Below, piece by piece: positions 59,349-61,226 of a DNA stretch of 64,000 nucleotides. A program made the translations under genes and the position numbers. Location of the stretch: contig NZ_VJND01000010.1 in assembly GCF_007556605.1 (NCBI RefSeq), positions 1 through 64,000 of the forward strand. The letters are read 5' to 3'. The notes beneath the pieces are model-generated. The model did no database searches. It saw nothing but the letters and a program-made list of their open reading frames with translations, and was not told the DNA's origin. How positions within the stretch are numbered: position 1 is the first letter of the stretch; every line of letters begins with the position of its first letter. This DNA comes from Tepidimonas sediminis. Its GTDB lineage: Bacteria; Pseudomonadota; Gammaproteobacteria; Burkholderiales; Burkholderiaceae_C.

Positions 59349-61226
59349 ATGGCAACTTACACTTGGTCATTCGGTGCGGCAGGGTCGGGCCTGCAGTTCA
59401 CGATCACCTACGACAGCGATACGCACCAGTTCACCGTCCGGGGTCTGGAGGGCTCTTTCGATCTCAACGCCCTCTGGTTCTCGAACGGGGATGGTAAGGT
59501 GGACGGCAACGTCACCCTTTCCAAGTCGGACAACAGCCTCAACATGAACGGCGCCAACACCGTCTGGTCCGACGACGGCTCGTCCAGCAGCGCCAAGATC
59601 GTCTGGGACGGCTACCAGAAGCTCTCCAACCCGGGTTTGGGGGCCGCCGGCATCGACAAGGACACGTTCATCGCCGCCGGAGAAAGCTACACGTTCGACG
59701 CCGCAGCCGGCTTCAGCCCGGAGGGCACCACGCTGGGCGTGCGGGCCACCAGCGTCAATGGCAGTGACAGCATCAAATGGGTCGACCGGGAGGCCACCGT
59801 GCAGACGGCTCCCCCGCCGTGGGGGCCGAACCCCTTCGTCGTCGACGCCAGTGCAGCCGGCTTGGACGGCACGAATGGCAACGACGGGGTTCCCGGCGCA
59901 GAAGGAGTAGCAGGATACCAAGGCGCAGAAGGCGTCGATGGCAGCGACGGCTCGCTTGGAGCCGATGGCATCAATGCGGTCGGGACGGGCAACGGCAAAA
60001 CCGTCGCCCAGCCTGGCAGCCCGGGCACCGAAGGAAAGCCGGGCCTGGTCGGCGGAAACGGAGGAGACGGCGGCGACGGCGGGAACGGTGGGAACGGAGG
60101 CCCGGGTACCGATGGCCAGTCGGCCATCATCCTCGACCCGTCCGCGAACTACAGCGCGCTGCTGATCGACGCCAGCGCCGGACCGATCGTCATTCTCGGC
60201 GGCAACGGCGGAGACGGGGGAGACGGCGGAGCCGGCGGCCGAGGAGGAGATGGCGGGGAAGGCGGAGCCGGCGGTGATGGAGGCGACGGCGGCGACGGCG
60301 GCAACGGCGGCAACGGCTCGACCGCACAGGGGTACAAGAATGGCGCCAACGGCGGCAACGGCGGCGACGGCGGCAACGGCGGCGACGGCGGCAACGGCGG
60401 CGACGGCGGCGACGGCGGCGACGGCGGCAACGGCGGCAACGGCGGCAACGGCGCAGTGGCCATCGTCAACGGCAGCGTGACCAACGTCTACATCATGGGC
60501 AGCCACGACGTGACCATCCTGGGCGGCGAGGGCGGCGCTGGGGGCGCGGCCGGCGGTGGCGGCGACGGCGGCGACGGCGGCGCAGGTGGCACTGGCGGCG
60601 ACGGCGGAACCGGAGGACAGGGTGGTGCCGGGGGGACGGCGGGCCCGGGTGGCACCCCCGGATCCGCGGGGCAGAAGGGGGCGGACGGTGCGAACGGTGC
60701 GGACGGTGCGAACGGTGCGGACGGTGCGAACGGTGCGAACGGTGCGGACGGTGCGGACGGTGCGAACGGTAAGGACGGCGCTGACGCGCCCGCGTTTTCC
60801 GACCCCGTGGTCGTCGATGCCACCGCCCACACCGGATACCTGACGATCTCCGGCTCGAATGGGGAGGACGTCATCAAGATCGGCTCCGGTGGCTCGACGA
60901 TCTACGACACCCACGGTGTCGACACCTACTATCTCGGGTCCGGCAAGGACGTGGTGGTCTTCGGCCGGCACGATCTGGACGATGTCGACGTCATCCACGG
61001 CTTCGACGCCACACAAGGTGACGCGCTCGACATCAAGGATCTGCTTGAGGGCTACGGCGGCGGCGACCTGACCGGCTGGGTCAACTTGGCCGAATCCGGA
61101 ACCGACACCACCGTGCAGGTCGACCGCGACGGCGGCGGTGACGGCTATCAGGACGTCGCCGTCCTGGTCGGCGTGACGGGGCTGAACGTCAGCCAGCTGC
61201 TGTCGGATGGCAACCTGCTCGTGTGA
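59349..61226 (+). CDS. Secreted Gly-rich, collagen-like repeat protein with T1SS C-terminal signal
   Basis: A 625-aa protein, no N-terminal signal. Residues 1-168 form a beta-rich domain I do not recognise (MATYTWSFGAAGSGLQFTIT). From Gly171 come 12 Gly-X-Y triplets (GLDGTNGNDGVPGAEGVAGY), then blocks of Gly-Gly-Asp/Asn broken by beta-like segments (ALLIDASAGPIVILGGNGG; VTNVYIMGSHDVTILGGEGG), and a last run of Gly-Ala-Asp/Asn. Residues 486-625 match the VCA0849-type type I secretion target domain (TTVQVDRDGGGDGYQDVAVL, VTGLNVSQLLSDGNLLV). Almost no Pro in the Gly-Gly blocks argues for a polyglycine II bundle instead of a collagen triple helix; Asp/Asn may bind calcium. AGGAGG precedes the ATG; a terminator follows. 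No secretion genes are in the window. Confidence 0.88.
   Translation: MATYTWSFGAAGSGLQFTITYDSDTHQFTVRGLEGSFDLNALWFSNGDGKVDGNVTLSKSDNSLNMNGANTVWSDDGSSSSAKIVWDGYQKLSNPGLGAAGIDKDTFIAAGESYTFDAAAGFSPEGTTLGVRATSVNGSDSIKWVDREATVQTAPPPWGPNPFVVDASAAGLDGTNGNDGVPGAEGVAGYQGAEGVDGSDGSLGADGINAVGTGNGKTVAQPGSPGTEGKPGLVGGNGGDGGDGGNGGNGGPGTDGQSAIILDPSANYSALLIDASAGPIVILGGNGGDGGDGGAGGRGGDGGEGGAGGDGGDGGDGGNGGNGSTAQGYKNGANGGNGGDGGNGGDGGNGGDGGDGGDGGNGGNGGNGAVAIVNGSVTNVYIMGSHDVTILGGEGGAGGAAGGGGDGGDGGAGGTGGDGGTGGQGGAGGTAGPGGTPGSAGQKGADGANGADGANGADGANGANGADGADGANGKDGADAPAFSDPVVVDATAHTGYLTISGSNGEDVIKIGSGGSTIYDTHGVDTYYLGSGKDVVVFGRHDLDDVDVIHGFDATQGDALDIKDLLEGYGGGDLTGWVNLAESGTDTTVQVDRDGGGDGYQDVAVLVGVTGLNVSQLLSDGNLLV
60351..60449 (+). 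repeat. Eleven tandem 9-bp units encoding Gly-Gly-Asn/Asp
   Basis: Eleven uninterrupted copies of GGCGGC(A/G)AC. The only variation is the A/G that sets Asn or Asp. Nucleotide identity as well as protein pattern suggests recent expansion by slippage or unequal crossing over. Confidence 0.95.
60678..60767 (+). repeat. Ten tandem 9-bp units encoding Gly-Ala-Asn/Asp
   Basis: A first unit GGGGCGGAC is followed by nine perfect copies of GGTGCG(A/G)AC. The codon choice (GGT GCG) differs from the GGC-based repeat at 60351-60449, so this array expanded independently. Confidence 0.95.

Follow-up and report, generated by a model that had tools for sequence, protein, structure and literature searches.

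A type I-secreted protein of Tepidimonas sediminis with six glycine arms predicted to form a polyglycine-II bundle

The stretch of Tepidimonas sediminis DNA analysed here (64,000 nucleotides, called the window) encodes a protein of 625 residues (59349-61226, + strand) that we explain, with a probability of roughly 0.56, as a six-arm polyglycine-II bundle exported by type I secretion, probably a stalk at the surface or in the matrix. A type I secretion system would act on its C-terminal signal and export the protein before it folds. Outside the cell, its short beta segments would stack as a base, and the arms between them would double back in pairs, as three long antiparallel hairpins, to give a six-arm polyglycine-II (polyproline-II, PPII/PGII) bundle whose edge arms would be H1 and H6, of GXY type, and whose inner arms would be H3-H5, of GGX type. 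At 12-14 triplets per arm, the bundle would be a rod roughly 12 nm long, with the N-terminal beta module mounted on it. A surface or matrix (biofilm) stalk or adhesin is probably the role of such a rod, and the neighbouring LuxR-type regulator perhaps controls its gene.

The reading frame is real, GGAGGCGAGGCG precedes its ATG, and no Sec-type hydrophobic start was seen by eye at the N-terminus. An earlier note on this DNA had given the order as an N-terminal domain, GXY triplets, GGX triplets interrupted by beta segments ending in IVILGG and VTILGG, GAD/GAN triplets and a type I secretion target domain, and this order was borne out. The features of the protein and of its 3' flank are as follows.

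59349..59813, + strand: N-terminal beta module, residues 1-155; a family without a name, conserved in a five-row alignment
59814..59858, + strand: beta segment 0, residues 156-170; base of hairpin 1, predicted strand, block pLDDT 78-82
59859..59975, + strand: arm H1, residues 171-209; 13 GXY triplets, 13 in 4/4 homologues
60015..60122, + strand: arm H2, residues 223-258; 12 triplets passing from GXY to GGX, 12 in 4/4
60123..60197, + strand: beta segment 1, residues 259-283, ending in LLIDASAGPIVIL; predicted strands, block pLDDT 88-89
60198..60323, + strand: arm H3, residues 284-325; 14 GGX triplets, 14 in 4/4
60342..60452, + strand: arm H4, residues 332-368; 12-13 GGX triplets
60453..60521, + strand: beta segment 2, residues 369-391, ending in VYIMGSHDVTIL; predicted strands, block pLDDT 85-86
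60525..60641, + strand: arm H5, residues 393-431; 13 triplets, mostly GGX
60642..60677, + strand: presumed H5/H6 turn, residues 432-443; contains Pro, Gly phase continues unbroken
60678..60785, + strand: arm H6, residues 444-479; 12 triplets of GAD/GAN type
60786..61223, + strand: C-terminal beta region, residues 480-625; TIGR03661 type I secretion target domain at 547-623
61287..61306, + strand: terminator-like hairpin 3' of the gene; a consensus match alone, with 2 found in the region against 1.4 expected
61311..62021, - strand: convergent LuxR/NarL-type regulator gene; GerE PF00196 above cut-off, Response_reg PF00072 slightly below, start codon picked by eye

A promoter scan found none, and no RNA family matched above its gathering score in 57000-64000.

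The Gly-arm architecture was found in four genomes, those of the window, one congener, Tepidicella baoligensis and a Burkholderiales MAG, and all four full-length proteins have six Gly-triplet arms of about 12-14 triplets each. In residues 171-478 of the window protein, Gly recurs at every third position for up to 29 triplets without a break of phase. When these residues were shuffled 20,000 times, the longest such run averaged 6.2 triplets and never exceeded 19, with 0.23% reaching 13 triplets; the Gly phase is far beyond that of shuffled sequence. H1, H2 and H3 have 13, 12 and 14 triplets in every homologue and H4 has 12-13. H5 and H6 together form in-phase runs of 29, 27, 22 and 27 triplets in the four proteins, the 22 being broken by one ADA triplet, and the length of 433-479 differs by 6 residues between the window protein and the three homologues. 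Of the 51 Gly positions in 285-368, 49 are invariant; of the 33 non-Gly positions, five are. The Gly register and the arm lengths are nearly constant in all four proteins despite high synonymous divergence (synonymous differences per site, pS, of 0.53-0.75 in the four homologue pairs computed out of six).

Short out-of-phase turns separate arms 1/2 and 3/4, and conserved beta segments separate arms 2/3 and 4/5, an arrangement that implies three fold-back hairpins on the beta segments. The earlier note had counted two such segments; as predicted strands, four flank the arms, namely before H1, between H2 and H3, between H4 and H5, and after H6. GGX-type triplets in constant phase, by which PPII/PGII bundles are recognised, are present, and the Gly content of the arms is graded. 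Triplets with at least two Gly, counted over the four rows, number 2/52 in H1, 19/48 in H2, 52/56 in H3, 42/48 in H4, 37/52 in H5 and 0/48 in H6, or 131/156 in H3-H5 against 2/100 in H1 and H6 (Fisher p 6e-44, which ignores the kinship of the four rows and hence is no fair probability). From this gradation we infer an edge position for the GXY arms, which would need one Gly face, and an inner one for the GGX arms, which would need two.

AF2 models were made of the full-length protein and of residues 157-522, for three sequences each. The full-length model has a mean pLDDT of 48.6, with beta segments up to 84 and arms at ~30-40. For residues 157-522 the mean is 57.1 (57.1, 51.2, 36.6, 35.5 and 31.6 in the five models), with values of 78-89 at the beta base and the first triplets of the arms; pLDDT drops tipward in H1-H5 to ~28 at the tips and is below 50 in H6 save at its base. 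A Foldseek search of 350,542 PDB chains with the 157-522 model returned three at E ≤ 10, all PPII-bundle antifreeze proteins (two 7JJV chains and 2PNE; E 0.12, 0.24 and 7.5, none below 0.001). VIA-align, run on these three listed chains, matched the snow flea antifreeze protein 2PNE over its whole length (81 of 81 residues, Z 10.9, 1.8 Å). The matched part of the model lies between residues 16 and 326, a range that reaches from H1 to the end of H6 as judged from its first and last residue alone; for 7JJV the alignment covers 87 of 126 residues with Z 8.8 and 2.3 Å. The tool itself warns that repeats with Z below ~13 may share only their arrangement, and AF2 may have learnt the bundle fold from the same antifreeze entries. 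The alignment of the modelled base with 2PNE and 7JJV supports, in silico and for the confidently modelled base, the earlier proposal of a polyglycine-II-like bundle in which the Gly arms are turned back by beta segments. Simple disorder with no conserved N-terminal domain, the outcome named beforehand as counting against that proposal, is not what was obtained; the N-domain is conserved. The top Foldseek match of the full-length model was an archaeal pilus chain (E 0.09). Two other matches were set aside: a phage collagen-repeat protein among predicted viral proteins (E 6.8e-6) for its rmsd of 36 Å, and the engineered collagen-like fibril 8zxl (E 6e-23) as a matter of composition, its best single stretch scoring 11.2 bits (bias 41).

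The same triplets could also be those of a collagen-like stalk, in which the GXY and GGX arms of three copies would wind into triple helices interrupted by the beta segments. We consider this unlikely. Collagen PF01391 is the only Pfam match in the window protein and exceeds its gathering score of 27.2 bits with 31.9 (strongest over 423-479), two homologues gave weak SclB collagen-adhesin matches far below cut-off, and PHROG collagen-like tail families matched the window or Tepidicella protein with E 1e-4 to 1e-10. However, Pro-rich GXY throughout, as in collagen-like proteins, was not found: Gly takes two of three positions in H3-H5, and Pro is nearly absent from 285-479 (2/195), where the earlier remark of almost no Pro holds, as it does not in 171-256 (5/86). 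The equal-length arm pairs between beta segments suit fold-back within one chain, and the monomer model is an antifreeze-like bundle, albeit one from single-chain AF2 that is compatible with a trimer too.

An equally improbable reading takes the arms as a disordered Gly/Asp/Asn-rich spacer or hydrogel between the N-domain and the secretion signal, with the constant phase left over from an origin of the repeats by slippage. Slippage arrays should differ in length, whereas here arm lengths and Gly are kept amid changes at the other residues and high divergence at synonymous sites, and the beta segments between the arms are conserved as well; what speaks for disorder is the outer-arm pLDDT of ~30 and the low complexity of the arm DNA, which has 9-, 18- and 36-base periods. 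Less probable still is an RTX-like polymer that binds calcium through the arm Asp and folds as it is exported, since the X residues swap freely between homologues (D, N, A, T and others), unlike fixed ligand positions, and the RTX nonapeptide PF00353 has no match at E ≤ 1 (HMMER filters can lose weak matches), against which stand the Asp counts (11 in 285-368, 7 in 433-479) and weak matches of the C-terminal region to serralysin C-termini (16-42 bits, family cut-off 500). Acidic and amide residues, put by the earlier note at one in three, are nearer one in four (D+N+E 23/84 in 285-368; D+N+E+Q 45/195 in 285-479).

The six-arm bundle would carry an N-domain that was described as unrecognised, and it indeed has no Pfam or NCBIfam match at E ≤ 1, nor did its profile match any PDB chain at E ≤ 1. 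The three full-length homologues match it at 72, 69 and 68% identity, and an alphaproteobacterial MAG has a version that is 48% identical. An adaptin-ear or Ig-like sandwich, suggested by the low-confidence full-length model (best Z 7.3, 2.5 Å, 81 aligned), was rejected, the scores lying in a range that the tool itself labels common; the N-domain is modelled as a beta domain without a closer fold claim. Scanned for the N-domain, the genomes of 84,980 species yielded 63 pattern matches and three confirmed loci, in Tepidicella baoligensis, the Burkholderiales MAG and the alphaproteobacterial MAG; viral contigs gave 30 pattern matches and no relatives. A search of 199 genomes with the full protein found a full-length relative in one congener, 66% identical (one of the ten other congeners searched), the remaining matches listed being partial and within the repeats or the C-terminus. 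The N-domain profile matched one of 399 genomes of the order, its own, and four of 398 of the phylum, its own and three others. In these three others the N-domain heads, respectively, a 1202-residue protein with cadherin-like and RTX repeats (L038 7026-10634, in a gammaproteobacterial-class genome), a frame that looks Calx-beta-like by eye and is truncated at a contig end, and a short acidic protein that resembles a Ruegeria plasmid protein (34%). Since it heads proteins with differing bodies, the N-domain is a mobile N-terminal module. Searching the class with the arm profile also turned up a Gly/Asp-rich lipoprotein-like frame, which was rejected for its other architecture.

At the opposite end, TIGR03661 matches residues 547-623 of the window protein with 41.8 bits (cut-off 17.6; 47.4 bits for the window C-terminus) and the C-terminus of the congener protein with 30.5 bits, above cut-off, and exporter genes are present in the genome, so that the type I secretion claimed for the protein is supported. 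The ABC/MFP/TolC set proposed as a check was found, with an LssB-type ABC at 988 bits (cut-off 693), its HlyD at 386.5 (cut-off 208.65) and two TolC matches above cut-off. The C-termini of the Tepidicella and MAG proteins have no TIGR03661 match at E ≤ 1; they match serralysin C-termini with 42.5 and 42.2 bits, a model which the window and congener C-termini touch more weakly (16.2 and 24.3 bits) and whose whole-protein family cut-off is 500. Directly after the Tepidicella gene lie a PrtD ABC (750 bits, cut-off 510) and an HlyD (397 bits), and in the Burkholderiales MAG the gene is followed by an ABC frame, Tepidicella-like by eye, that continues past the end of the locus. Above cut-off, the window genome has a single LssB-type ABC and no PrtD match, and the window substrate would be paired with this LssB exporter. 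On a protein that is otherwise conserved, the C-terminal signal appears to have changed along with the exporter type (LapA/LssB against serralysin/PrtD). Signal and exporter type do not correspond one to one, as the congener has an LssB and two PrtD ABCs above cut-off and Tepidicella has both types; the two congener PrtD-type matches are in tandem (G008:C9:119218-122561), distant from the homologue.

In the window genome, LssB is encoded ~20-30 kb downstream on the same contig, together with an HlyD and two retention-module proteins. These form a LapA-like locus (L021 3598-13934; G000:C2, ~79.6-89.9 kb) whose retention-module proteins have 1239 residues, with DUF5801 repeats, and 592 residues. 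The retention module NF033682 is present in these two other proteins of the genome and has no match at E ≤ 1 in the window protein. On contig C5 (G000:C5:32969-35059; L049, L040) a TolC above cut-off lies beside a LapG-type Peptidase_C93 match, which suggests a complete Lap system, on a contig other than that of the window.

A LuxR-type regulator adjoins the gene, convergent in the window and the congener and upstream and divergent in Tepidicella; the congener and Tepidicella regulators are 53% and 44% identical to that of the window. A similar LuxR-type gene was seen by eye next to the homologue in the Burkholderiales MAG. In the alphaproteobacterial MAG, a LuxR-type gene ~0.9 kb off is 27% identical to the window regulator, a weak case because LuxR-type genes are common. 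A PilZ-domain frame stands directly before the Tepidicella homologue (L022 9650-9943, by HMM) and a PilZ-like frame occurs in the Burkholderiales MAG (L023 9457-9945, by eye), which hints at c-di-GMP and biofilm control. A frame at L024 3-2162 starts with a LuxR-type response regulator and continues for ~490 residues into repeat-rich sequence, either a fusion or a frame artefact.

The literature searched gave no paper that links PPII/PGII bundles with type I secretion. Tentatively, and at slightly less than even odds, the protein may be the first long polyglycine-II bundle secreted by type I: hairpins closed by beta rungs, arms about three times as long as those of PE_PGRS33, a GXY edge around GGX inner arms, and a rigid rod that folds by itself outside the cell. 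If so, Gly-rich PPII bundles would be more than antifreeze or mycobacterial curiosities, being exported as rods by Gram-negative bacteria, and a long-armed natural bundle with a sequence rule for edge and inner arms would let one study how low-complexity GGX sequences fold in the absence of a hydrophobic core. The apparent joint switch of secretion signal and exporter would offer a helpful test, provided by nature, of specificity in type I secretion.

The new class proposed by the earlier note is not borne out, since glycine-rich PPII/PGII bundles are an established kind (PMC10216338, PMC13243192, PMC12571646, PMC11869133). The same kind of fold is described there for PE_PGRS and antifreeze proteins (PMC10216338, PMC13243192, PMC12571646), and one of these three papers reports edge helices that are looser in simulations. 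The antifreeze proteins of Collembola (snow flea 2PNE, Granisotoma 7JJV) share with the predicted base the Gly triplets in antiparallel PPII arms, a likeness of fold that claims no sequence homology beyond composition. However, the window arms have 12-14 triplets, whereas 2PNE totals 81 residues, and the window protein adds beta segments, an N-domain and a type I secretion signal; an antifreeze role is not expected. That function was also set aside because the Tepidicella relatives are thermophiles and because fold alone does not show function. In the mycobacterial PE_PGRS proteins, GGX arrays like those of the window protein are modelled as PGII sandwiches with the first Gly of each triplet inward, and the PE_PGRS33 arms have three to five triplets (PMC10216338). 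Their export route differs, PGRS regions are described as tolerating large indels whereas the arm length of the window protein is conserved, and their N-terminal PE domain gave no Pfam match at E ≤ 1 in residues 1-171 of the window protein. The polyglycine domain of the phage S16 adhesin (6F45) is likewise a polyglycine-rich PPII bundle in an adhesive fibre (PMC11869133, PMC13243192), but in a tail-fibre context; its absence from the Foldseek matches of the 157-522 model says nothing either way. LapA-class type I-secreted adhesins resemble the window protein in the TIGR03661 C-terminus and in a genome with an LssB-type exporter, HlyD, retention-module proteins and a LapG-type peptidase, but the window protein is short, lacks NF033682 and has Gly arms in place of Ig-like or cadherin repeats. 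Scl-type bacterial collagen-like proteins share the Pfam Collagen match above gathering score in H5/H6, whereas the window protein is Pro-poor, of GGX type and interrupted by regularly spaced beta segments. It is best described as a predicted PPII/PGII bundle, a known kind of fold, in a new form that is long, six-armed and type I-secreted and has a new N-terminal beta module.
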